The notes under the pieces are model-generated. The model was not told the origin of the DNA. It did no database searches and saw only the letters and a program-made list of their open reading frames with translations. Positions 1 through 41,080 of a stretch of 41,080 bases of DNA are shown piece by piece. The stretch is taken from IMG/VR virus record IMGVR_UViG_3300018405_000007, positions 1-41,080 of that record; one strand, written 5' to 3'. Origin of the DNA: a virus. The stretch's first letter is position 1. Each line of letters starts with the position of its first letter. Position numbers and translations under genes: made by a program.

Positions 1-123
1 CGCCGGCGCCGGCGCCCGAGTCGATGAACGTCGCGTCGGGCTCCCACTGGTCGATCTTGCGGGCGACGTGCCCGGCCAGCGTCATGTTGTCGACGCCGCG
101 GAACACCAGCGGGTCCATCGCGA
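1..123. repeat. Terminal direct repeat, left copy (identical to 40958-41080)
   Basis: The first 123 bases are identical to the last 123. The repeat lies inside the terminase large subunit gene, and joining the copies gives one uninterrupted reading frame. The simplest reading is a circular contig with an unremoved assembly overlap, giving a unit length of 40957 bases. A true packaged terminal repeat in the middle of terL would be unusual. Confidence 0.95.
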
Positions 124-937
124 TCAGGCCCTGGCGCGGGTAGACCACGCTGCGGTCGTCGCCGAAGCGGGCCGGGTCGACGCCCAGGATGCGCGGCGCA
201 TAGTCGTTCGAGCCCGGCGTGTGCTGGCGCCGGGCGGCAGTCTCGACGTCGGTCAGACTCAGGAGCTGGTCGTCGCCGGCGGCAGCGAAGTCGCACAGGT
301 ACTCGCGGGCCCAGGCCGTCGCGCTCATGGACGTGCGCAGCCGCTCGACCTCGGCCGGGTCCAGCGCGTCGGTGTCGTAGACCGTGTACCTGGCGCGTGC
401 CCAGCCCTCGCGGTTCTCGGCCGCGAAGAACAGGGAGCTGAACAGGTTGATGCCCTTGGGCGTGCCGATGAACCAGGCCCAGCCCTTCCGGTCGGACAGG
501 GCCGGCTGGATGATCTCGTCCCAGACCTCGGGCTTCATCTGGGCAACCTCGTCCATCACGGCGCCGTCCAAGCGCACGCCGCGCATGGCGTCGGGGTTGT
601 CCGCGCCAAAGATTCGGATGATTGCGCCGTTGTGCCTGAAGGTGACGGCCAGCTCGGACTCGTTGATCTCGACCGCGCCGTGCGGGATGAGCGGGGCGAC
701 CATCTGCTTGAGCCGGGCCCAGGCGATGATCTTGGCCTGCTTGAGGAAGGGGGCGACGTAGAAGTACAGCGGTAGCTCGTGCTCGCACTTGACCGCGGCG
801 TCGAGCAGTTTCTTCAGCGCGATCTCGGTCTTGCCGGCGCGCCGGTGCAGCGCCAGCACGATGAACCGGGCCCGCAGTCGGGCGCACTCGCGCTGCCACT
901 GGCGCATGGGGAGCCCGAACCGGATCGCCTGGCTCAC
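1..937 (-). CDS. terL: Terminase large subunit, N-terminal 312 codons (continues at the other end of the window)
   Basis: This is the packaging motor that translocates and cuts phage DNA at the portal. The GTG start at 937 overlaps the TGA stop of the small subunit (GTGA), as expected for translational coupling. Visible motifs are a Walker A loop HRRAGKT (residues 31-37), a Walker B VMDE ending in D129-E130, a coupling-type segment FIGTPKG near 157-163, and the nuclease start GVDPARFGDD with D254. D306 (TFIDSGAG) fits the second metal ligand. The frame runs off the left end and continues without break at 40957, giving 440 residues in all, near the usual size for this family. A later ATG (residue 11) is possible but would lose the coupling. 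It is read leftward, first in the packaging and head module. Confidence 0.95.
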   Translation of the reverse strand, partial: MSQAIRFGLPMRQWQRECARLRARFIVLALHRRAGKTEIALKKLLDAAVKCEHELPLYFYVAPFLKQAKIIAWARLKQMVAPLIPHGAVEINESELAVTFRHNGAIIRIFGADNPDAMRGVRLDGAVMDEVAQMKPEVWDEIIQPALSDRKGWAWFIGTPKGINLFSSLFFAAENREGWARARYTVYDTDALDPAEVERLRTSMSATAWAREYLCDFAAAGDDQLLSLTDVETAARRQHTPGSNDYAPRILGVDPARFGDDRSVVYPRQGLIAMDPLVFRGVDNMTLAGHVARKIDQWEPDATFIDSGAGAG

Positions 938-4523: not shown

Positions 4524-4554
4524 TTGACGGGCCGCTCGGGGGTCGGGTTACAAT
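4524..4554 (+). promoter_or_regulatory. Probable repressor maintenance promoter (PRM-like)
   Basis: TTGACG (4524-4529) and TACAAT (4549-4554) lie 19 bases apart, upstream of the repressor ATG at 4583. The spacing is longer than optimal, consistent with a weak or activated promoter. A transcript would start near 4561. Confidence 0.45.
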
Positions 4555-4582
4555 GGCCAGATACAACCACTAGGTGGTAGTC

Positions 4583-5422
4583 ATGGCCACGACGTTCGGG
4601 GAAACGCTGCGCATGGATCGCGAGCGTTTGAAGATGTCCCAGGAGCAGCTCGCGAAGCTGCTGGACGTGTCGCAGCAGGCCGTCGCGAATTGGGAAGCGG
4701 GCACCGCCCACCCTCGGCGCGAGCGCCGCGCCCGCCTGCTGCAGATACTCGGACCGCAGTCCGAGCTCGCGAAGAACCCGCCACGCTTCGAGTTCATCGC
4801 AGCCGAGGATCAGCCGGTGAGCCCGCCAAGCTCGACACTACGGGGCCAACGACTTGAAGCGATAGAAATGGCGACGAACCCGGATTTCCGCCGGCAGTCG
4901 GAAGAAGCGGCGAAGCGGTTCGAGGAGAGCCGACGCAAGGTCGAGTCCACGCTGGCCCGCATCAAGATGCAGCAGGACGAGTTCTACGGGCGGCTGCCCG
5001 AGGAGCTGCGCCCCTACTTCGACGGGCGCATCACCGTCGGCGCCCAGACCCGGCAGCTCGACTACCTATCCCCGCGCTGGGGGATCGAGGTCAAGAACGC
5101 GCCCAACAACAGGTTCATGTCCTGGAGCTCGGCCGCGCCCGCCCTGGTCAAGCTCGCCGTCGTGCGCGGCATCGCCGACCAGCACCTGCGCCCGCCGCGC
5201 GAGTACGCGCTGATCTTCGTGAACGACGGCCTATCGCTGCGCGCCGACGGCTCGATGCAGAAGCTCATGTTCGACGCCGGCGTGCTCGGGATCAGCGTCT
5301 ACCAGGTCGAGTCCCACGCGCAGGCCGCCGACCTGGTGCGCCAGCTCGAACTCGAAGGCGAGGATGTCGCCGACGAGACAGACGAGGCCGTCGATTCCGA
5401 CCCCGAGAACCCGGCCGACTGA
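4583..5422 (+). CDS. CI-like repressor with an HTH and a nuclease-like C-terminal domain
   Basis: The protein has 279 residues. An XRE-type HTH lies at residues 5-57 (FGETLRMDRERLKMSQEQLA, LDVSQQAVANWEAG), the hallmark of phage repressors. A charged helical linker (~85-140) follows. The C-terminal part (~140-250) has no S24/LexA Ser-Lys peptidase. Instead it shows RQLDYLSP then WGIEVKN, with D160, E169 and K171 in the spacing of a PD-(D/E)XK core, followed by a helix and strands (EYALIFVND, ISVYQV). The ATG at 4583 follows AGGTGG. It sits divergent from the Cro-like gene between two operator regions, so lysogenic repressor is the likely role. The nuclease resemblance is an inference from motif order. 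Confidence 0.75.
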   Translation: MATTFGETLRMDRERLKMSQEQLAKLLDVSQQAVANWEAGTAHPRRERRARLLQILGPQSELAKNPPRFEFIAAEDQPVSPPSSTLRGQRLEAIEMATNPDFRRQSEEAAKRFEESRRKVESTLARIKMQQDEFYGRLPEELRPYFDGRITVGAQTRQLDYLSPRWGIEVKNAPNNRFMSWSSAAPALVKLAVVRGIADQHLRPPREYALIFVNDGLSLRADGSMQKLMFDAGVLGISVYQVESHAQAADLVRQLELEGEDVADETDEAVDSDPENPAD

Positions 5423-5443
5423 CCCCACCCCCCTCTGAAAACC

Positions 5444-5471
5444 AGCGCCCGCGAGCCGGGCGCTTCTTTTT
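5444..5471 (+). terminator. Rho-independent terminator after the repressor gene
   Basis: AGCGCCCG (5444-5451) pairs perfectly with CGGGCGCT (5457-5464) around a 5-base loop, followed at once by TCTTTTT. It should end the repressor transcript before the early promoter at 5507. Confidence 0.85.
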
Positions 5472-5506
5472 GTCCGAGCCCACAACAAAAAAGTCGTGGC
5501 GACCTG

Positions 5507-5534
5507 TTGCACAACCTCGGGATTGTGGTACGAT
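5507..5534 (+). promoter_or_regulatory. Early rightward promoter
   Basis: TTGCAC (5507-5512) and TACGAT (5529-5534) are separated by 16 bases. The -10 element is enclosed by a perfect operator (5521-5541). The promoter opens the long rightward early operon starting at 5590. Confidence 0.6.
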
Positions 5535-5541
5535 CACAATC
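5521..5541. promoter_or_regulatory. Operator overlapping the early promoter
   Basis: GATTGTG (5521-5527) and CACAATC (5535-5541) are perfect 7-base inverted arms around GTACGAT, which contains the -10 hexamer. Binding here would block RNA polymerase. GTTGCACAAC at 5506-5515 gives a further symmetrical element just upstream. Confidence 0.65.
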
Positions 5542-5542
5542 A

Positions 5543-5560
5543 ACAAGTCGTCGAACTTGT
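5543..5560. promoter_or_regulatory. Second inverted repeat downstream of the early promoter
   Basis: ACAAGT (5543-5548) and ACTTGT (5555-5560) are perfect inverted arms around CGTCGA. It lies immediately downstream of the predicted start point and may be another operator or an RNA hairpin in the leader. Confidence 0.4.
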
Positions 5561-5589
5561 GACCACAACCACCGAAAGGACCTCCTGCT

Positions 5590-5688
5590 ATGACCTCCGA
5601 AACCCTCCTCGATGCGGCCCTCGCGGTCGTGATCGGCCTGGCGCTCACCGCGCTGACCCTCGCCTGGTTCGACGTGCTGGTGCCCTGA
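5590..5688 (+). CDS. Small single-pass membrane protein, first gene of early operon
   Basis: A 32-residue peptide starts at 5590 with AAAGGA about 10 bases upstream and ends by overlapping the next ATG (ATGA at 5688). Residues 9-28 (AALAVVIGLALTALTLAWFD) form one strongly hydrophobic helix. Good ribosome binding site and stop-start coupling support expression. Its function is unknown; tiny early membrane peptides of this kind are common in phage early operons. Confidence 0.6.
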   Translation: MTSETLLDAALAVVIGLALTALTLAWFDVLVP

Positions 5689-6023
5689 TGGACCACACCG
5701 CCCTGTCCCGCCTGACCGACCGCGAGCTCCTGCTGCACGCGGACAACCACCGCGACCCGCTCACCTCGACCGACGTCGAGATCGAGCTGGCCAACCGCTT
5801 CGCGAACCTGGTCGAGCTCACCGAGATCGACGACGCGATCACCGAGCACGGCCTGGAGCGCGGCGACCTGCGCCCCCTGCTGGAGCTCCTGAACGACTTC
5901 AACGCGACCGACCTGAAGGCCCTGCGCCAGAAGCTCGAACGCGCCGACAAGTTCTACGACATCGCCAACGACGCCGGCGACGTGATCGCCCGGCTCAACA
6001 CCCTCGTCACCGAAACCCTCTGA
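5688..6023 (+). CDS. Early hypothetical protein
   Basis: The 111-residue acidic protein begins MDHTALSRLTDRELLLHADN and is predicted to be mostly helical (ELANRFANLVELTEIDDAIT, LRQKLERADKFYDIANDAGD). It is coupled to the preceding membrane peptide by an ATGA overlap. A 10-base gap holding GAAAGG separates it from the next gene. No catalytic or metal-binding motif is visible. I do not recognise a family; the operon position suggests an early host-takeover or replication accessory role. Confidence 0.75.
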   Translation: MDHTALSRLTDRELLLHADNHRDPLTSTDVEIELANRFANLVELTEIDDAITEHGLERGDLRPLLELLNDFNATDLKALRQKLERADKFYDIANDAGDVIARLNTLVTETL

Positions 6024-6033
6024 AAGGAAAACC

Positions 6034-21457: not shown

Positions 21458-24400
21458 TCACTTCTCGACGCCGAACAGCAGGGCCGCCGGGTTGTCGGTC
21501 TGCCCTTCACTGATCGCGATCACGCCGTCGATGGTCCGGTTGATCTGCCCGCTCGGCAGGTGCAGCACGACACCGCCGACGTTCACGACCGACCTGGCCA
21601 GCGCCCGATCCAGCTCGCCCTGGCCGATCTGCTTGCCTAGCTTGTCGAGCTCCTGGAAGAAGCGCAGGCCGGCCGGGCCGCCGTAGGCCATGTCGAACTG
21701 CTTGGTGCCGGTGGCGTACTGCACGGCGCCGGTGATCTCGCGCAGGCCCACGAACAGACCCATCAGGTAGCTGATCTGCTCGCCGATCAGCTTCTTGGCC
21801 AGCTCGTCCTCGTCGTCACCCCCGCCCGGCTGCAACGCGTCCTTGATGAGCGCAGCCAGCACCGCCGGCACCGAGTACAGCAGCAGGAAGTCGCCGGCCA
21901 GGTGCATGACCTCCAGCGGGCTGCGGTAGTTGGTGGCCTTGGCTCGCTCGACGCCCAGGTTGTACGAGGCGCTGAAGTACCCGTAGAACACGGTGAACAG
22001 CTTCTGCATCGGGCCGCCGCGCTGGATCAGCGCCAGGTCCTTCACCTGGCCGCCCGACTGCGCATCGAGCACCGCCTGGTCGGCGAGCTTGATCGCGCGG
22101 TCCTCGGCGACGTCCTCGGCCATGTCCACCGGCGCCTCGGCCAGTGCCTTCTGGTAGGCGCCCCACCAGGTCGGCATGTCGGCCACGAGCTGCAGCGACT
22201 GCATGGGCGCGAACATCAGCGCATCCAGTTTCGCGCGCGCCGGGCCTTTGCCCTGCACGACCGACTGAATTTCGTTGAGCTCGCGCTGCATTGTGCGGTG
22301 GCGGTTGCGCATGAACTCCGACTTCTCATGCACCTGGCGCACCAGGCCGACGGGCGACTTGGCCCACTCGGCCGTGCCCATCGCGATCCACTTCGCGCCC
22401 ACGCGCACGATGCTCTGGGTCAGGCCCAGCGGCTGCAGCATGGCGTTCATCAGGTTGAAGCCCAGGCCGGCGACCGCAGCGCCGGTGCGCAGCGGGGTCA
22501 GCACTCGGGCCAGGGCGTCGTGGTTCGGCGCGTCGCCGGCGGCGATGTCGCGGATCGCGGTCTTGAACTGCTGCACGACGTCGGCACCGTAGGTCGAGCG
22601 GATCGCCTTGTCGACCTGCTCGTTCTTGATTATGCGGTTCGCGTCGATCACCCACTCGTGCCAGGCGAGGTCGTGGATCACGTCGTTGACGCCACGGAAC
22701 AGCGCGTCCCAGGTCAGCACCAGGGGGCGGCCCGTCACCTGCTCGGCGCGGGTCTTGGTGAACGAGCGCCGGGTCGTGGCGGCCACGAACGCGCCCTTCA
22801 TCTGCTGGCGCGCCGCCTCGGCGTCGGCCTGCTGCTCTGCCCTGCCCGACTCGCGCGAGTCGTAGACGATGGGGAAGTACCCGCCGCGCAGGCTCAAGGT
22901 TTCGCCGTCCTTGGTTTCCACGGTCAGCGGCAGGGGCTCGACCCAGGCCGGCTCCTTGCCCATGACGCGGCGCTCCTTGGCGGCGATCTGCGGGCGGTAG
23001 GACTCGAAGAAGTCCCAGACCTGCTGCACGAACTGCCAGTCGGCGGCGCTCAGGTTCTGCAGCACCGGCACGACTTGCTCGAAGGTCCAGCCCCGACCGT
23101 CCAGCAGTCGCTGCTGGTTGCCGGCGTTGCCCATGTTCAGCGCCAGCACGAGCTGCTCGCCGCGGTTCAGGGACTCGGCGATGCTCGGGAAGAACTGCCC
23201 CTTGCCGCCCATGCGGCCCTCGGCCAGGACCGGCTTGAGCAGCTCGGTAAGGCGCCGGGTCGCGTCGGCGCGCATCGTGGCCTCCTGGCCGCCGGCGGCG
23301 TTCATCGACTGGATCAGGTAGGTCCACATCGGACCCGCGTCCTGGAACCCGTCGAGCTCGCGCGCCAGGCTCGCGGTCTTGCGGTGGCTGGCCAGGAACC
23401 CCTTGAACAGGTTCACGGCGCGGTTCATCGCGGTGTCGCGCGTGCGGTTGTTCGCCCGCTTGTCGCCGGCGTGCTCCTCGATGGACATCGTGATCTCGCG
23501 CACGACGTCGGCGAACCGGCGGTTGTCGGCTGCAGTCAGCAGCTTCTCCTTCAGCCGGCCCAGGTGTTCGATCTGCTTGACCGAATCCACCAGGCCGCGG
23601 AACTCCTCGACGGTCAGGTCCTTGTACGACTGGCGGAAGGCTTCGGCCGCGATCTTCTCGGGCAGCTCGACGTCGATGCCGAGCTCCTCCTGCTCGCCGA
23701 TCCACTTGGCCAGGGCCTTGCGCTTCTCGATGGCCTTGAGCGACACGCCGGCGCGCAGGTCGAACCGCTCCAGGATCGCGTCGATCTGGTCCAGGTAGTC
23801 GACGTCGATGGCCTTGCGGGTGCCCTCGCCCTCGAACTTCTTCAGATACCGCAGGCCCTTCTCGACCTCGATCAGCGCGTCGTGCGCGGCGCGCGTCGCG
23901 TAGGTATTCACGAGCTGGTTGCGCTTCTCGGCTGCGGCCTGGGCGGTGTCGCCGGCCTTCATGGCCTTCTCGCTGGCCTTGGATGCGCGCACCTCGGCGG
24001 CGGCGTACTGGCTGGGCTTGACGTTCCTCACCAGCAGCCGGTCGACGATCTGCCGGGCGTATTCACGCGCGGCCTGGGCCAGCACCTTCGGCTTGCCGGT
24101 GGCCTTCTGCAGCGCATTGAGCTCGGTGGCCACGAACCGGGCGCGGGTGTCGTTGTGGATCGCCTGGTCGGCGGCGCGCTCGATGGCCTCGGGGGTGGCC
24201 AGCTCGCCGTACCGCTCCAGCATCTTCTGGTCGGTCAGGCCCTCGATGGCGACCTTCGGCGCCTCGGCGATGGCCAGCGTGCGCACGAGCTCGTCGCCCG
24301 ACGTGAACCCGAACGACTCGGCCACCAGGTCGGGGTGAATCCCGTCCTTGGCCGTCATCTTCAGGTTTTCCATGATCTGCACGATCTCCTCGGGCAGCGC

Positions 24401-27400
24401 CATGTCCTTGAGCGCGAACAGGTCCAGGCGGCCGGCGCCCATGTACTCGATGTCGGCGTCCTCGCCGGGGCGGCGCTCGCCCTGGGCTTCGGTGTAGTCC
24501 TTCGCGTAGGCGTACTGCGGGTCGCCCCGGTACTCGGCGTCGAACTTGTCCTCCAGGTCGCGACCGTCGAACTTGCCGTTCTCGTCCTTGGGCAAGTAGC
24601 CGTACTCGGCGAGCTGCTCGCCCATCGCGTCCAGGCTCAGGCCGTCCTCGCGGCGCAGCAGGTACTTGCCGAAGATCGGCATCGGGCTGCGCTCTTTCGG
24701 GTCCCAGCCCCACTGCGACTCGACGGCCTTGCGGTCCAGGCCGCCCATCTTGGCGATGGCCACGAACAGCGAGTCGACGGTCGGGTCCACCGGGCCGGGG
24801 CGCGACTTGCGCTCGGGCTCGGGGGCCATCATGGCCTTGTCGTTGGCGTCGAGCTTGCCGGTCAGGAACTGCCACGCGCGGTACACCGGCTGCGACATGA
24901 TCTCGCGCCGGGCCTCGATCTGCATTTCGGCGCGGCGTGCCGCGGCCTCGCGCTGCAGCCTCTTGACCTCCCGGCCGCGGGCGTTGCGCATGTAGGCCAT
25001 GTCGCGCAGCGTGCGGGCCTGCAGGTCCTCGATTGCGTCCTGGGTCGCCTGGGTGCCGAGCTCCTGGTAGGCGGCGAACTCCTCGGTCGTCATGCCGGCC
25101 TGCTGCGGCTCGGTGAACAGCGGCAGCATCGAGCGGCCCTTCTCGGCCAGCTCGATCTGCTCGGTCGTGGCGAGCATGCGGTCCATCACGCCGCGCACCT
25201 CGTCGGTGAGCTCGACGCGCAGGGCCTTCAGATCCTTGTAGACGCGTAGCAGCCAGGCGCGGAACCGCTGGAACATGCCCTGCAGCTCGATGCTCGGGGC
25301 CTTGCCCTCGAACAGGTACGCCTCGAACCCGCGGGCAAACTGCTCGTGATACGAGCGTTTCTGCTCCATCGGCAGGTTGAACCACTCGTCGATGGTCTGC
25401 ACACCGAACCAGTCGAGCAGCGCCTGGGTGTCCTTGAGGATGGCCTGCTCGCCGGGGGTGGCCGACTCGGCGCCGAACATTGCGTTCTCGCCGGCGAGGC
25501 GGCTGGCCAGGTCGAACTGCACCTCCAGGAAGAAGTGCCCGGACTCGTGCAGGAACGTCGACAGGTCGGCACCCTTGAGCAGCGTAATGATGCTGGGCAC
25601 CTGGGTGATGTCTTGGCCGAACGCGATCTGCCCGCGATTGCCGGTGCCCTGGAAAAAGAGGTTGTCGAACTCGCCGATCTTTGCGGCGCGGTCGGCCTCG
25701 TCGCCCTTGGCATAGGTCTTGATGTCGGTGACGCCGGCGTCCTTCAGCAGCTCGATCACCGCTGGGTCCGTGCCCTCGGGCACGACCGCGCCCTTGAACT
25801 CGGACAGGCTGACCTCGCGCAGAATCTTCGCCTCGAAGTACGCGGTCGGCAGCGTGCGCAGCTTGTCCAGGAAGTTGCCGACCTGCTGGGCGACCTCGGG
25901 CGTGAGCTCGTAGCCGTAGTCCTTGGCGGCGCGCACGACACCCTTCTTCGCGGCGTCCTCCATGATTGCGACGCCGGTGTCGAGCGACAGGTCCGGGTTG
26001 ATCGCCGACACGACCTGCAGGAACTCGGCGTCGATCTCCTTCTTGACCGCCTCGAACTGCTCGGCCGAGATCAGTCGGTCCTTGCTGGCGCGAATCTGCG
26101 CGACCGACTTGAACTGCGGGGTGTACTGCGCGCGTAGCGAGCCCACGCCGTAGTTGAAGTTCTCGCCGCCCCGGAGCTCCTTCTTGAGGAGCTTCACGAC
26201 GTTCTCCAGGGTGTGCGGGATGTACTTTCGGTTCCCCGAGTAGGTGAACCCCTGGAAGATGCGCTCGCTCTTGGTGATGCTCTGGATCAGCTCGGCCACG
26301 TACTCCTGGAACGCGTTGCCCAGGTCGGCGTCGGCCACCTGGGCCTCCATTGCCTTCTGGGTGGCGTAGCGTTCGACCTCGGGCTGCTGGCGCAGCTTCG
26401 CGGCGTTGGCGATCTCGATGGCCGTGTCGCGCACCATGTTGCGCTGGGCGTCCTCGTCGGTCTTGAGCTTCTGAACGAACGCCGCGCGCTTGCCCTCCAT
26501 CGACTCATAGGCGTCGATCAGCTCGGCCAGTGCTGCCCGCTGGAACGCCGGGTCCTCGCGCAGCGCCCACGAGTCGGCGACGTCCAGGAACGGACCCAGG
26601 CCGAACTCGCGCAGGCGCGCCTCGCGCTCGGGTGTCATGCCGGGGCGGTCGACCAGCGTCGGCTCGATGCCGTTGTCGCGCAGGAACTGGCCCATCACGG
26701 CCAGGTTGCGCTCCAGCTCGCGCTGGGCGTCGCGCTGCAGCTCGGACGTGCCCGGCAGGCTGATGCCCATGCGGTCGGCCATCGGGCGAAACTTTTTGTC
26801 GAGCGCGGCCTGGGCCTTGCGGTCGATGTCGCGCTCGATGCTCGGGTAGCGCGGCGAGTAGATGTCGGCGCCGAACACCTTGGTCGAGGCGTACCCCTTG
26901 GGGTCGGCCATCTTCTCGTCGCCCACCAGCGTGATCTCGCCGAAGTTGGTGAGCGGCGTGTCCTTCTTGGTGATGGCCAGCGACGGCACCGCAAGGCCAC
27001 CCATGCGCTGCGCGAACCGCAGGTTGTCGGCCGTCAGGTTGTGCGTCACCACCAGGTCGCGCTCGGGCTGCTCGGTCTGGTCGAACGTCGCGGCGGCGCC
27101 GGCCACGCCCTCGGCCTGCACGCGCAGCGGGTAGCGTTTGACCAACTCCTGCGGCGTCGTGCCGACCTTCGCGGCGGTGACGGCGTAGAAGTTGGCGAGC
27201 AGGTTCGCGTAGGAATCGTTCACCTCCGGGGTGAAGCGATTGGCGGCGTCGAGCTGCGACTTGAACTCGCCGCGCACCTGGTCGATCTGGGTCTTGAACT
27301 GCACGTCCTGGTCGCGCTCGGCCAGCGCCCGGTCGACCTGCTGGCGCAGCTCCTCGACCTGGGTCTGCATGTAGACCTGGGCCTCGGCGCGGCTCATGCC

Positions 27401-28993
27401 CAGCGGGTCGGTCTTGACGTGATCGAGCAGCGCCTGGGCGTACTGAGTCGGCGCGATCTGGGCGGCAAACTCCTCGATGGGGATGCGCAGGTCGCCGCCG
27501 GTAGCGAGCGCCTCGGGCAGTTGCGTGCGCACGCCCTCGGGCAGTTGCTGCTCGGTGATGCCGGCCTCCTGGGCCATCTGCGCGAACACCTGGGCGTTCA
27601 CGTAGACGTCCTGCACCGGGCCGTCCTGGGCCGCCTGGCGCACGAACTCCTGGAACGTGCCGGCGTCGCGCTGGGCGAGCTTGGACTGCTTGACCAGCTC
27701 GGTCAGTTGCGTGAGGGCCTGGGCGTCGCGCTCGGCCATTTCGGCCTGGGCGCCCTTGATGCGCATCTGCAGCGCACCCTCCACGATGGTCTGGATCGTG
27801 GCGCTCGATGCTGCGGCCTGGCCGCCCTCCTCCACGCCACGCGGATCGGCGAGCGAGCCGACCATCGCCTCGATGCCCTTGACCACGCTGATCTGGCCAC
27901 CGACGCCGACGACGGTCGCGATCAAGGTCTGGGCGGCAGCGTTCGGGCGCTCGGCCAGGTACTCGCGGAAGGGCTTGTCGGGGTTCAGGACCGCCCACTC
28001 GTTCAGGTCTTGCAGGACGGTGGCGAGCTGCTCGCCGGGGATTTCGGTCGCGAGCTGATTAGCCACGACGCGGTACAGGGGCGCGCCGACCTTCAGGTCG
28101 CCGATGAGCTTGGCCACCGGCAGCTTCTCGGTCGCGTACTCGACCGCGGCCTGCGAGACACCGAACGACAGCGCCTGCAGCGGCGCGACGTTCTTGTCGC
28201 GGGCCTCGCCGTAGGACTGGCCGAACACCGGCGTGACCATCTGGGTCATGTACGCCTGCTGGCCGCCAGGGCCGCCGAACAGCAGCAGCGGCAGGCTCGC
28301 CAGGTTTGTCGACAGCGACTGCACGCCCGAGATCACGCCGGCGCCGACCACGCCCTCGGCCTTGGGGGTGTTGGCCTTGGCCTGCGCCTCGATGCTGCGG
28401 CGGTACTGCGCCAGGCCCTCGGCGGTGGCGCGCAGCGGATTGGCCGGCAGCACGCGCCCGACCAGGGGATCGGCGAGCGGCGCGGCCAGCTCGAACGGCG
28501 CCTGCACGGCGCCCACGACGCCGGCGCTCGCGCGCTGCAGGCCCGACACGCCGGCCTGGCCGACCATGCCCAGGTCAGACATCAGGCCGCCACGCGGGGC
28601 GCCCGGTGCGCTGACCATGTAGCGCACGGCCGACTCGATGGTGCCCAGCACGCCCACGTCGTCGTGCGACACGGCGGCGTTGTTCGGATCGGCGACCCAC
28701 TGTGCGACGGTCGGCGAGTTCTGCAGGATGCGGTCGAAGTCCGACAGGAACACGTTGCGCTCGACCTCGGGGAGGTTGCGCTGCACGACGTCGGCCGGGA
28801 TGCCGGCCTGGCGGCCCAGGCGCTGCGCGCGGGCGGCCATGTCGGGGTTCTGCAGGAGCGCGTTGTACAGGCTGGTCTTGGCCTGGGTGCGCTGCGAGTC
28901 GACGACCTGGCGGGCCGCGGCGTCAATTGGATCGGTGGACAGTTGGCCGGCCACCTTGGCCGCGGCGGCGTCGAAGTCGTCGGGTGTTCTCAT
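21458..28993 (-). CDS. Giant internal virion (DNA ejection) protein, polyvalent type
   Basis: With 2511 residues it is the largest gene in the window, in the position of T7 gp16. Early residues (~115-330) hold hydrophobic and Gly-rich segments. H1149-E-S-G-H1153 (TFLHESGHFFLEV) fits a zincin HExxH metalloprotease site. Much of the rest is charged helix and coiled coil. The C-terminal part (DFLLLYSVPAVLAALIKDAL, then DEDELAKKLIGEQISYLMGL) resembles large polyvalent protein-associated domains. It probably enters the host with DNA and forms or processes the channel. It is far longer than T7 gp16 (about 1300). The start overlaps the upstream stop (ATGA). No SLT-type lysozyme motif was identified. 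Confidence 0.82.
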   Translation of the reverse strand: MRTPDDFDAAAAKVAGQLSTDPIDAAARQVVDSQRTQAKTSLYNALLQNPDMAARAQRLGRQAGIPADVVQRNLPEVERNVFLSDFDRILQNSPTVAQWVADPNNAAVSHDDVGVLGTIESAVRYMVSAPGAPRGGLMSDLGMVGQAGVSGLQRASAGVVGAVQAPFELAAPLADPLVGRVLPANPLRATAEGLAQYRRSIEAQAKANTPKAEGVVGAGVISGVQSLSTNLASLPLLLFGGPGGQQAYMTQMVTPVFGQSYGEARDKNVAPLQALSFGVSQAAVEYATEKLPVAKLIGDLKVGAPLYRVVANQLATEIPGEQLATVLQDLNEWAVLNPDKPFREYLAERPNAAAQTLIATVVGVGGQISVVKGIEAMVGSLADPRGVEEGGQAAASSATIQTIVEGALQMRIKGAQAEMAERDAQALTQLTELVKQSKLAQRDAGTFQEFVRQAAQDGPVQDVYVNAQVFAQMAQEAGITEQQLPEGVRTQLPEALATGGDLRIPIEEFAAQIAPTQYAQALLDHVKTDPLGMSRAEAQVYMQTQVEELRQQVDRALAERDQDVQFKTQIDQVRGEFKSQLDAANRFTPEVNDSYANLLANFYAVTAAKVGTTPQELVKRYPLRVQAEGVAGAAATFDQTEQPERDLVVTHNLTADNLRFAQRMGGLAVPSLAITKKDTPLTNFGEITLVGDEKMADPKGYASTKVFGADIYSPRYPSIERDIDRKAQAALDKKFRPMADRMGISLPGTSELQRDAQRELERNLAVMGQFLRDNGIEPTLVDRPGMTPEREARLREFGLGPFLDVADSWALREDPAFQRAALAELIDAYESMEGKRAAFVQKLKTDEDAQRNMVRDTAIEIANAAKLRQQPEVERYATQKAMEAQVADADLGNAFQEYVAELIQSITKSERIFQGFTYSGNRKYIPHTLENVVKLLKKELRGGENFNYGVGSLRAQYTPQFKSVAQIRASKDRLISAEQFEAVKKEIDAEFLQVVSAINPDLSLDTGVAIMEDAAKKGVVRAAKDYGYELTPEVAQQVGNFLDKLRTLPTAYFEAKILREVSLSEFKGAVVPEGTDPAVIELLKDAGVTDIKTYAKGDEADRAAKIGEFDNLFFQGTGNRGQIAFGQDITQVPSIITLLKGADLSTFLHESGHFFLEVQFDLASRLAGENAMFGAESATPGEQAILKDTQALLDWFGVQTIDEWFNLPMEQKRSYHEQFARGFEAYLFEGKAPSIELQGMFQRFRAWLLRVYKDLKALRVELTDEVRGVMDRMLATTEQIELAEKGRSMLPLFTEPQQAGMTTEEFAAYQELGTQATQDAIEDLQARTLRDMAYMRNARGREVKRLQREAAARRAEMQIEARREIMSQPVYRAWQFLTGKLDANDKAMMAPEPERKSRPGPVDPTVDSLFVAIAKMGGLDRKAVESQWGWDPKERSPMPIFGKYLLRREDGLSLDAMGEQLAEYGYLPKDENGKFDGRDLEDKFDAEYRGDPQYAYAKDYTEAQGERRPGEDADIEYMGAGRLDLFALKDMALPEEIVQIMENLKMTAKDGIHPDLVAESFGFTSGDELVRTLAIAEAPKVAIEGLTDQKMLERYGELATPEAIERAADQAIHNDTRARFVATELNALQKATGKPKVLAQAAREYARQIVDRLLVRNVKPSQYAAAEVRASKASEKAMKAGDTAQAAAEKRNQLVNTYATRAAHDALIEVEKGLRYLKKFEGEGTRKAIDVDYLDQIDAILERFDLRAGVSLKAIEKRKALAKWIGEQEELGIDVELPEKIAAEAFRQSYKDLTVEEFRGLVDSVKQIEHLGRLKEKLLTAADNRRFADVVREITMSIEEHAGDKRANNRTRDTAMNRAVNLFKGFLASHRKTASLARELDGFQDAGPMWTYLIQSMNAAGGQEATMRADATRRLTELLKPVLAEGRMGGKGQFFPSIAESLNRGEQLVLALNMGNAGNQQRLLDGRGWTFEQVVPVLQNLSAADWQFVQQVWDFFESYRPQIAAKERRVMGKEPAWVEPLPLTVETKDGETLSLRGGYFPIVYDSRESGRAEQQADAEAARQQMKGAFVAATTRRSFTKTRAEQVTGRPLVLTWDALFRGVNDVIHDLAWHEWVIDANRIIKNEQVDKAIRSTYGADVVQQFKTAIRDIAAGDAPNHDALARVLTPLRTGAAVAGLGFNLMNAMLQPLGLTQSIVRVGAKWIAMGTAEWAKSPVGLVRQVHEKSEFMRNRHRTMQRELNEIQSVVQGKGPARAKLDALMFAPMQSLQLVADMPTWWGAYQKALAEAPVDMAEDVAEDRAIKLADQAVLDAQSGGQVKDLALIQRGGPMQKLFTVFYGYFSASYNLGVERAKATNYRSPLEVMHLAGDFLLLYSVPAVLAALIKDALQPGGGDDEDELAKKLIGEQISYLMGLFVGLREITGAVQYATGTKQFDMAYGGPAGLRFFQELDKLGKQIGQGELDRALARSVVNVGGVVLHLPSGQINRTIDGVIAISEGQTDNPAALLFGVEK

Positions 28994-37244: not shown

Positions 37245-38915
37245 TTACTGGTAGCCGCTGAACATGCTCATCGCGTTAGTGAGCCCCTCGGGTCCGCCAC
37301 CGCCGGCGGCGGCTGCATCCTTCGCGGTCGCCGCGGCCTGGGCGACCTGCGCCTGCTGCTGGGCAGCGGCTGCGGCCTGGGCGCGTGCGTTGCGGATCAT
37401 CGCGACCTGCTCGTTCGGCACGATCAGCTCGGGGTCGATGCCGAGCATGTCCGAGTAGGCGTCGGCCCACTTGTCCGAGTCGAACTTGTCGAGCACGTCG
37501 GGCTTGATGGCCGCGACCGCGCCCAGGTTGCCGACGAATCGGTCGACGCCGTTGGTGGCCACCGCGCGCTGGGCCTGGGCCAGCATCGACACGTACTGCA
37601 CGTTCAGGTCGACGCCCTGGAGCTCCTCGGGCGGGGGCGGCACCAGGCCGGCCTCGATCATCCGGGCGAAGGTGCGCTCGATCAGCGGGTCCAGCAGCTC
37701 GTTGTGCAAGCGTTCGAGCACCGGGCCCAGCATCAGCAGCTTCTCCTCGTGGCGCTCGGCGACCTCGGTGGCCGTCATGTTGTTGCGCGGGGCGCTGGCC
37801 AGCATCAGGAACAGGTCGGTGTAGAACGTCTGGTTGATCCGACCGCGCACGTCCTGGATGTCGGCGAGCAGATGGTTTAGGTCCAGGCGGACCTCGAACA
37901 TGGTCTTGACCCCGGCCGACGGGCCGGCCATGTCGACGTAGGTCGTGCCGCCGGGCAGCGTGTCGATCATGTGGTTTTTCATCGAGCTCGGCGCCTGCAG
38001 CGGGGGCTTGGTCATGTAGTCGATGCCCTGGGCCTTGCGCAGTTGCTCGTGCTGCAGTTGCTTGATGTCGCCCAGCGCCTCCATGCCGGGGCTCGATCCA
38101 TAGATGTCGCCGCCGATCACGGACCAGCGCGGCACCAGGGCCGGGAACTGCTTGAAGCCGGACTCGCGCAGGAACTTGGTCGAGTCCTGGCCGACCTCGA
38201 AGTAGCAGGACATGAAGGGCATGTTCTTCGCGTCGCGCAGGCGCGTGTCGCGGTCGATGCGCGGCTCGATGGCGTGAATGATCGGCACCCAGGTGTCGAG
38301 GCTCCCGCGGTCGTGCAGGTTCTTGACCGTCGGGCTCACGTTCTCGATGCCGAACTCGCCGACCAGCTCGGCTACGGTTTTCTCGAACTCGCGGTACAGC
38401 GTCACGATCTCGCCGCGGTAGTTCTGCGCGATGGCGTACTCGCCGGTCGTGAGCACATGGTGGCGGATCACGTCGTCGAAGTCGTCCATCACGACGGACG
38501 CGCCGGTGCCGAACGCGCCGATCTCCTCGTACATGGAGTGCAGCGCGCGGTAGGTGTTGGATCGCTGGAAGATGTCGAGCATCCCGCGCTGCACCTGGGA
38601 GAGCCAGAGCTTGACCGGCGCGTAGTCCATCAGGTCAGGGTCAGCCGTGGCCAGGCGGAACCAGGGACGTGCGGGGCTCGTGGCCCCGCCCATCAGCCCA
38701 GCCCCCAGCACGCGCAGGGCGCGGGTGCCGGTGGAGTCGTAGATGTTGTTGTGGCGGCGCTCGCCCTTGTTGCGGTCGGTCACGAAGAACCGGCCCGAAC
38801 GCGGCAGCAGGTAGTCGCTGATTTCCTTCCAGTGCGACCAGTAGGTCGACCGTTCGGTCTTGAGGCTCCCCCATCGGGAGTAGAGCCGGTCGCGCGGTGT
38901 CTTGATGAGGGCCAT
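37245..38915 (-). CDS. Portal protein (T7-like)
   Basis: The 556-residue portal of podoviral type has YSRWGSLKTERSTYWSHWKE, ISDYLLPRSGRFFVTDRNKG, RRHNNIYDSTGTRALRVLGA and GLMGGATSPARPWFRLA, all conserved near the start. FYTDLFLMLASAPRNNMTAT then EVAERHEEKL is the conserved C-terminal core. A Gln/Ala-rich tail ends the protein. The dodecameric portal is the packaging vertex for terminase and the site for the adaptor. Confidence 0.93.
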   Translation of the reverse strand: MALIKTPRDRLYSRWGSLKTERSTYWSHWKEISDYLLPRSGRFFVTDRNKGERRHNNIYDSTGTRALRVLGAGLMGGATSPARPWFRLATADPDLMDYAPVKLWLSQVQRGMLDIFQRSNTYRALHSMYEEIGAFGTGASVVMDDFDDVIRHHVLTTGEYAIAQNYRGEIVTLYREFEKTVAELVGEFGIENVSPTVKNLHDRGSLDTWVPIIHAIEPRIDRDTRLRDAKNMPFMSCYFEVGQDSTKFLRESGFKQFPALVPRWSVIGGDIYGSSPGMEALGDIKQLQHEQLRKAQGIDYMTKPPLQAPSSMKNHMIDTLPGGTTYVDMAGPSAGVKTMFEVRLDLNHLLADIQDVRGRINQTFYTDLFLMLASAPRNNMTATEVAERHEEKLLMLGPVLERLHNELLDPLIERTFARMIEAGLVPPPPEELQGVDLNVQYVSMLAQAQRAVATNGVDRFVGNLGAVAAIKPDVLDKFDSDKWADAYSDMLGIDPELIVPNEQVAMIRNARAQAAAAAQQQAQVAQAAATAKDAAAAGGGGPEGLTNAMSMFSGYQ

Positions 38916-39517: not shown

Positions 39518-40558
39518 TCAAATCTCCTTGCTGAAAATGATGTCCTGCACGCCGTAGCCCATGCGCGGCATGATCTTGGCGAGCGCGGTGTTTTCCTTGG
39601 CGTGCCAGAGCATCAGCCTGGCGCCGCGCTCCTTGGCCATGCGCTCGGTTTCCCGGATCAGGCGCAGCCCGACGGTCGACGGGCGCAGGTCCTCGCGCAG
39701 GAACAGCACGTCGTTGTTGGCGACCACCAGGTCGGCGTAGTGAATGTGCGGCCCGATGAAGTTGACCGAGTAGCCAACGATCTCGCCGTCGGGGTCCAGG
39801 GCCCAGAGGCACAGCAGGCCGTTGTTCTCGTCGAGGAACGCGTAGCGGTCCCGGTCGGGCTTGAGCACCATGACCTGCTTGTTCTTCGCTACCTCGTCCC
39901 AATGCGCGACGAGCAGCTCGTGCATGTCGTCGATCCGGTCGCCCAGGGGCGCCTCGACGATGCGCACGCCGGCGGCAGGGTTCCTGGCCACCGAGCTCAG
40001 GGGGCGGACCTCGAAGCCCGGCACCTGGGCGTCGAAAATGACGTGGATGCGGGGCGCGGCCGAGTCGTTGCGGACCGAGTGCTCGCCCCGATGGTTGAAC
40101 CACCAGAGCTCACCCGGCTGCATGTGGACAGTCTCGCCGTCGCAGGTGAACGAGTTGCCGGTGGCCGAGCTCAGTACCAGGTGGAACCGGCTGAAGGTCT
40201 TGGCGTACTGACCCTGGTCCTCGTGGGCGTCGATCACGCCGCCGGACTTGAGCTTGACGATCATCACGCGGCCCAGGACCGTCGAGCCCAGGATGCGCAG
40301 CACTGGCGCCAGCAGCGGGTAGGCCACCTCGGCGAGCTCGTGCATCGAGAGGTAGTCGACCGAGCGCAGGTCGTTGAACACCGACTCCAGCGTGATCTCG
40401 CGGGGACCGCGCAGCCAGATCGCCTCGGTGTCGTGATGCGGCGAACCGGGCGCCTCCTGACGGACCGTGATCTCGCCCCAAAGTTCGGGACGAGCGGCAA
40501 GAGCGTCGAGCATGGGCCCGACGTCCAGGTCCGTCAGTAGGCGTTGAAAGTTGTGCAT
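39518..40558 (-). CDS. Fusion of 2-oxoglutarate/Fe(II) oxygenase (Asp/Asn beta-hydroxylase-like) and GNAT acetyltransferase
   Basis: The protein has 346 residues. Residues ~55-180 match the aspartyl/asparaginyl beta-hydroxylase fold: H112-E-D114 iron ligands (VIDAHEDQGQY), SRFHLVL, distal H160 (RGEHSVRN) and R170 (PRIHVIFD) for 2-oxoglutarate. Residues ~198-346 form a GNAT domain (LWALDPDGEIVGYSVNFIGP, FLREDLRPSTVGLRLIRETE, ERGARLMLWHAKENTALAKI, GYG). Both sets of key residues are present. Targets are unknown; it may modify virion or host proteins. The start at 40558 lies 13 bases after the terL stop without a clear Shine-Dalgarno; a GTG at 40624 would add 22 residues but lies at the promoter element. 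Confidence 0.85.
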   Translation of the reverse strand: MHNFQRLLTDLDVGPMLDALAARPELWGEITVRQEAPGSPHHDTEAIWLRGPREITLESVFNDLRSVDYLSMHELAEVAYPLLAPVLRILGSTVLGRVMIVKLKSGGVIDAHEDQGQYAKTFSRFHLVLSSATGNSFTCDGETVHMQPGELWWFNHRGEHSVRNDSAAPRIHVIFDAQVPGFEVRPLSSVARNPAAGVRIVEAPLGDRIDDMHELLVAHWDEVAKNKQVMVLKPDRDRYAFLDENNGLLCLWALDPDGEIVGYSVNFIGPHIHYADLVVANNDVLFLREDLRPSTVGLRLIRETERMAKERGARLMLWHAKENTALAKIMPRMGYGVQDIIFSKEI

Positions 40559-40571
40559 CGAGCGGCGCGGG

Positions 40572-41080
40572 TCATCGCAGTAATTCGAGCGGATCGTATT
40601 CACCGCGGTTTGCAGTACGCGCACCGAACTGCTGCATCAGGCTGCGCTTGGCCACCGGATGCGCGAAGGTCAGCGCCAGGGCGTCGGCCAGGTCGGGCGA
40701 GCCGGCGTCGGGGAGGCGCTTCTTGATGTCGTCCTTGCTTTCGAGCTGGATGCGGTTCGCCGCGTCGTACTTGTAGGTCGGCGTCGCGAGCTCCAGCTTC
40801 AGGCTGGTGTCGTTCGGGATCGCGCCGCCGGCCTTGATCCACTCGGCCAGGTCGAACCACATTTCGGCGCGCTTGTTGACGTAGCGCGGGTCGTTCGGCT
40901 TGCCCCCGAAGTTCACCTCGGTGACGTCGTAGCCGAGCTGGCGCAGCCGGTCGATCACGCCGGCGCCGGCGCCCGAGTCGATGAACGTCGCGTCGGGCTC
41001 CCACTGGTCGATCTTGCGGGCGACGTGCCCGGCCAGCGTCATGTTGTCGACGCCGCGGAACACCAGCGGGTCCATCGCGA
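40572..41080 (-). CDS. terL: Terminase large subunit, C-terminal part (joins 1-937)
   Basis: This frame ends at 40572 and encodes the last 128 residues unique to this end plus the copy of the repeated 123 bases. It carries the rest of the RNase H-like nuclease domain: DVTEVNFGGKPNDPRYVNKR, RAEMWFDLAEWI, and the third acidic site in GSPDLADALALTFA. These finish the TerL metal-binding triad. The stop is followed after 13 bases by the 2OG-GNAT gene, and a phage-type promoter lies inside this end of terL. Confidence 0.95.
   Translation of the reverse strand, partial: AMDPLVFRGVDNMTLAGHVARKIDQWEPDATFIDSGAGAGVIDRLRQLGYDVTEVNFGGKPNDPRYVNKRAEMWFDLAEWIKAGGAIPNDTSLKLELATPTYKYDAANRIQLESKDDIKKRLPDAGSPDLADALALTFAHPVAKRSLMQQFGARTANRGEYDPLELLR
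40593..40625 (-). promoter_or_regulatory. Candidate late promoter inside the 3' end of terL
   Basis: Leftward, GGTGCGCGTACT (40625-40614), exactly 15 bases, then TACGAT (40598-40593). It would serve the 2OG-GNAT gene (ATG 40558) and the portal module. The element lies within coding sequence, so its conservation is constrained by two functions. Confidence 0.6.
40958..41080. repeat. Terminal direct repeat, right copy (identical to 1-123)
   Basis: Exact copy of bases 1-123, offset 40957. See the left copy for interpretation: most likely a circular molecule with overlapping contig ends. Confidence 0.95.

Follow-up and report, generated by a model that had tools for sequence, protein, structure and literature searches.

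A gene fusing an AspH-like 2-oxoglutarate oxygenase to a GNAT acetyltransferase in the portal-proximal region of a BPP-1-like podovirus

The window analysed here, meaning the whole stretch of 41,080 bases, is the record of a BPP-1-like podovirus. The large terminase gene (terL) spans both ends of the record, which fits a circular genome, and the presence of an integrase together with a repressor-like HTH protein makes it likely that the podovirus is temperate. Following terL, the minus strand carries in order the gene for a fused oxygenase-acetyltransferase, a gene for a coiled-coil protein of 198 aa and the portal gene (Table 1). The fused gene is an intact single open reading frame with an ATG start; a gap of 13 nt separates it from the preceding terL, and one of 2 nt from the coiled-coil gene that follows. 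An earlier note on this DNA had described it as lying between terL and portal; the position is right and the gene adjoins terL, although the portal gene lies one small gene further on. No solved structure was found for the small coiled-coil protein.

Table 1. Features of the terL-portal region of the window; residue numbers refer to the 346-aa fused protein.
Feature	Position	Strand	Basis or remark
Fused AspH-like 2OG-Fe(II) oxygenase and GNAT acetyltransferase gene	39518..40558	-	346 aa; Pfam, AlphaFold2 and Foldseek
Oxygenase domain, residues 1-180	40019..40558	-	Pfam Asp_Arg_Hydrox core at residues 93-178
Fe ligand H112	40223..40225	-	kept in 107/107 homologues
Fe ligand D114	40217..40219	-	kept in 106/107 homologues
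Fe ligand H160	40079..40081	-	kept in 107/107 homologues
2OG-binding R170	40049..40051	-	kept in 107/107 homologues
Interdomain linker, residues 181-198	39965..40018	-	model confidence lowest here
GNAT domain, residues 199-346	39521..39964	-	acetyl-CoA motif A at R292-G297
terL, C-terminal part	40572..41078	-	PHROG terminase large subunit
terL, N-terminal part	2..907	-	PHROG and Pfam terminase
Small coiled-coil protein, 198 aa	38919..39515	-	ends LLTG...TLLGG; relative of BPP-1 Bbp22; between GNAT and portal
Portal / head-to-tail connector	37245..38915	-	69% identical to BPP-1 Bbp21, 48% to epsilon15

The domain composition of the fused protein was examined using Pfam, AlphaFold2 and Foldseek. 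The Pfam family Asp_Arg_Hydrox (PF05118) matched the oxygenase core with an E-value of 1.1e-12 and 48.6 bits against a cut-off of 22.6, and Acetyltransf_1 matched residues 233-335 with an E-value of 1.8e-4 and 22.2 bits against a cut-off of 20.7. The structure was predicted from a 48-row alignment and gave a mean pLDDT of 90.8 and a pTM of 0.60, the latter indicating that each domain is well modelled while the placement of one domain relative to the other is uncertain. Comparison of the model with the PDB using Foldseek gave L-proline cis-4-hydroxylase (4p7w, E 1.5e-11) and human AspH (5apa, E 1e-8) for the oxygenase half, consistent with the double-stranded beta-helix fold of the model, and GNATs including AAC(3) (1bo4, E 5e-8) for the second half. 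The earlier note had read both domains into one protein and had proposed structure prediction, with comparison to the AspH and GNAT folds, as a check; the Pfam scores above cut-off, the Foldseek matches to AspH and GNAT structures and the presence of both folds in the 346-aa model bear this reading out. Judged by sequence and model, the identity of the protein as a two-domain enzyme is close to certain.

The predicted metal and cosubstrate ligands of the oxygenase form a HxD...H triad followed by the 2OG-binding arginine, at exactly the residues H112, D114, H160 and R170 that had been numbered beforehand. The note had named loss of these ligands across homologues as evidence against its reading, and no such loss was seen among 107 distinct oxygenases, where each ligand is kept in 106 or 107 sequences. 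R124 and H126 are each present in 106 of the 107. Among solved oxygenases, L-proline cis-4-hydroxylase is the nearest in sequence, the match being limited to a core of approximately 80 residues. The window oxygenase shares with 4p7w and 5apa the PF05118 double-stranded beta-helix core, the Fe-binding histidines and the 2OG arginine, but both solved enzymes lack a GNAT domain and their substrate-binding regions beyond the core could not be aligned to the window protein. A further difference is the Asp metal ligand of the window oxygenase, which AspH is not known to have. By family membership the oxygenase is a predicted hydroxylase of the PF05118 Asp/Asn/proline kind, and not an AlkB or TET/JBP enzyme.

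At the putative acetyl-CoA motif A of the second domain (R/Q-x-x-G-x-G/A), R292 is found in 123/123 GNATs and G297 in 121/123; the middle Gly position is occupied by Thr in the window GNAT and by Arg in most relatives. The profile of phrog_1249 matched the window GNAT with an E-value of 1.2e-12, and alignment with BPP-1 Bbp24 using hhalign gave a probability of 98.2% (E 3.1e-14). A more remote relationship was obtained with the Rac family of phage LUZ19 (phrog_3986; hhalign 95.6%, E 1.3e-8), for which the PHROG profile search of the window protein gave no direct match at E<=0.1. As judged from these profile alignments, the window GNAT is a homologue of Bbp24 and a remote homologue of Rac.

These family assignments bear on the possibility that GNAT and oxygenase act together on DNA bases in the manner of Mom, since DNA-modifying GNATs of the Mom type have been described in phages (PMC7824862). 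The oxygenase belongs to PF05118 and not to AlkB or TET/JBP, the GNAT belongs with phrog_1249 and Bbp24, and the window showed no further genes recognisable as base-modifying, which together leave DNA modification very improbable.

Other candidate relatives of the GNAT were examined. T7 gp13 (PF11090) has been proposed as the counterpart of GNATs that adjoin internal virion proteins (PMC6775973), and in Pseudomonas phage PfAn1 the oxygenase/GNAT pair has such a position; T7 gp13 was considered for these reasons and rejected, as hhalign gave only 0.5% with the window GNAT and 0.8% with the Rac family. T7 gp7 was likewise not accepted as a direct homologue, the single-sequence hhalign comparison not being significant. 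The Achromobacter phage protein Axy23_032 (L071, 2396-2857) matches phrog_3986 (1.3e-27), the T7 gp7 family phrog_2746 (3e-8) and phrog_1249 (2e-6), an indirect link which hints that T7 gp7 might be a diverged GNAT. Bbp23 of BPP-1 and the neighbour in ctQRb9 were considered as second GNATs, and both match short tail fibre families instead.

The order GNAT, small coiled or virion protein, portal is kept in BPP-1-like, phiKMV-like and T7-like Pseudomonas phages. In BPP-1, whose portal relates it to the window phage, Bbp24 likewise lies after terL and upstream of the portal gene, the order being terL, Bbp24, Bbp23, Bbp22 (of the LLTG type) and portal; however Bbp24 is a GNAT alone, and there is no oxygenase gene between terL and portal. 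The same slot is occupied in LUZ19 by Rac (gp28), followed by the virion protein gp29 and the portal, again with no oxygenase. In Variovorax phage VPv81 an RNA polymerase-like ORF is followed by ORFs of 77 aa, a GNAT, 115 aa and a portal-like protein, assigned by reading and gene order, and in the T7-like phage KNP the GNAT adjoins a gp7.3-type protein and the portal. BPP-1 Bbp24, Rac and possibly T7 gp7 are in this way tied to a common portal-proximal GNAT lineage. Both GNAT and oxygenase are absent from the portal regions of Caulobacter phage Jess A and epsilon15, indicating that the enzymes are not required for assembly.

Linkage between the two enzymes was measured by scanning IMG/VR. The fused protein as query recovered fused contigs at >=70% identity together with many neighbouring gene pairs. 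When the GNAT profile was used, almost every locus had the portal downstream of the GNAT and about two thirds had the oxygenase, many GNAT loci lacking it. Searching only with the oxygenase profile and then scoring the neighbours avoids the bias towards pairs and gave 80 contigs: 60 with oxygenase then GNAT, 1 with GNAT then oxygenase, 14 fused, 3 without GNAT and 2 that end too early. The GNAT is therefore adjacent or fused in 75 of the 78 informative contigs, a count that includes closely related contigs. On this gene-neighbourhood evidence the oxygenase is an accessory partner of the portal-linked GNAT.

In the phage collection, oxygenase and GNAT of Limnohabitans phage DC33 and of PfAn1 are two overlapping or abutting genes. 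The DC33 genes, ORF8 and ORF7, overlap at the same locus as the fused gene but encode two proteins instead of one; the part of PMC12195039 available annotates ORF8 as an Asp/Asn beta-hydroxylase and draws no link between ORF8 and ORF7. The GenBank taxonomy of the DC33 record (PQ492659.1) is Inoviridae, yet its genes are of the tailed-phage type. In three contigs (L048, L049 and L051) an inversion of terL takes the oxygenase along with it, the GNAT stays with the portal, and both enzyme genes are kept. The terL of L010, L081, L087 and others is only approximately 30% identical to that of the window, against a much closer relationship of the neighbouring portal and enzyme genes, which suggests an exchange of terL. 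One oxygenase relative (L169, 4995-5549) lies amid replication genes for a DNA polymerase and a nuclease, with no GNAT nearby; this location and the absence of both enzymes from Jess A and epsilon15 argue against an indispensable virion role.

The history of the fusion was followed on trees built from 42 representative pairs by quick search, with moderate branch support. The fused or split state changes at least five times on each of the concatenated, GNAT and oxygenase trees, and the fused groups comprise the clade of the window, that of L087, and L115, L161 and L121. Part of these changes could be fissions rather than fusions. The fusion in L121 (ORF 4992..6029) is intact and GNAT-first, and for this reason cannot be derived by splitting an oxygenase-first protein; its AlphaFold2 model, predicted from the single sequence, has a pLDDT of 40.7, too low to be of use for its fold. 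A second, separate GNAT gene (4541-4987) lies immediately upstream of this reverse fusion. The best explanation of the sequence comparisons is that the fused gene would have arisen when two ordinarily adjacent genes, one for the portal-linked GNAT and one for a PF05118 oxygenase, became joined.

Because the genes overlap or abut in most relatives, an assembly or sequencing artefact might have joined them in the window. The fused form with a homologous linker was found in independent contigs (L007-L010, L149 and others), and other fusions carry different linkers. Comparison of the fused window gene with L007-L009 gave dN/dS values of 0.26-0.36, with both halves constrained. The fused contigs of at least 70% identity, this purifying selection and the retention of the ligands in homologues indicate that the fused gene is not due to chance, and the probability of an artefact is negligible. 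No described case of a phage oxygenase-GNAT fusion was found in the libraries and literature searched, nor was a named one present among the best 50 matches in BFVD. What is new here is the comparative picture of oxygenase-GNAT linkage, recurrent fusion and a conserved portal-proximal slot.

The view that the two activities belong together had been put forward from the window alone, and it is much strengthened by the recurrent fusion, the reverse-order case and the adjacency in 75/78 contigs. For these reasons a shared pathway for oxygenase and GNAT is favoured and, as far as gene arrangement can tell, is highly probable. Through the recurrent fusion in both orders, 'acetyltransferase' and 'Asp/Asn hydroxylase', hitherto unlinked annotations, become one testable pathway. 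The oxygenase half would depend on Fe(II), O2 and 2OG for the hydroxylation of a residue or side chain and the GNAT half would transfer acetyl from acetyl-CoA to an amine, both most likely on one protein or complex. It is possible that a single substrate is first hydroxylated and then acetylated, as the earlier note had suggested.

The halves might instead be joined for co-expression only and act on small molecules or on separate substrates, for example a proline-like amino acid that is hydroxylated and then N-acetylated. Small amines are commonly acetylated by GNATs, and the nearest solved oxygenase by sequence works on free proline. However, that match spans only the short core, the window proteins searched included no others recognisable as belonging to a small-molecule pathway, and the recurrence of the fusion, in one case with the order reversed, speaks for a common pathway over co-expression alone. 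This alternative is considered quite improbable.

Taken as a whole, the arrangement is best explained by an accessory enzyme with two functions, encoded by a BPP-1-like podovirus, whose halves would act in one pathway, most likely on a portal or ejection-region protein; this explanation is given roughly an even chance. By its gene position the enzyme would be expressed late, together with the packaging and portal proteins, and the pair is probably protein-modifying. The likeliest target would be a portal or ejection-region protein encoded in the same operon, and by position the first candidate is the small coiled protein next to the fused gene; this choice of target is tentative and falls somewhat short of even. 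A more specific version, in which one polypeptide both hydroxylates and acetylates the same target in the portal or ejection apparatus, or in a host partner of that apparatus, so that two marks tune genome ejection or host takeover, is distinctly unlikely.

The main rival to a portal or ejection target, by analogy with Rac, is a host target. Here the GNAT would modify host proteins, for example parts of the transcription or protease machinery, or a factor in defence, and the oxygenase would assist or modulate it. Few examples of phage protein acetylation are documented, and one besides Rac is discussed in PMC7552054. Rac is the only experimentally studied relative of the window GNAT and acts on the host: its expression in Pseudomonas aeruginosa increases general protein acetylation and leads to cleavage of the RNA polymerase alpha subunit (PMC7552054). 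The remote homology to Rac, the shared slot upstream of the portal, and the patchy presence and turnover of the oxygenase, which resemble those of accessory host-interaction genes, agree with such a role. Against it, phage LKA1 has a GNAT in the corresponding place and leaves alpha intact (PMC7552054), so that the function of Rac is not conserved even among relatives. Rac phages also carry their own RNA polymerase, whereas in the window no single-subunit RNA polymerase was recognisable among the large ORFs, so that a Rac-style shut-off of the host polymerase would hurt the late transcription of the window phage itself. The locus beside the portal and small virion-type proteins is moreover conserved across very different podoviruses. 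A host target is rated as rather unlikely.

Two further observations concern the neighbouring virion-type genes. In BPP-1-like phages the portal is preceded by small proteins that end in LLTG...TLLGG, as with Bbp22, which weakly matches phrog_831, a family that includes epsilon15 gp3; two such proteins occur in tandem in L004. The window also encodes, on the minus strand at 21458-28993, a protein of 2,511 aa in which LPD22 and PBECR5 nuclease-like domains were found; it resembles a polyvalent protein of the injected kind and would stand at the gp16-like end of the ejection module.
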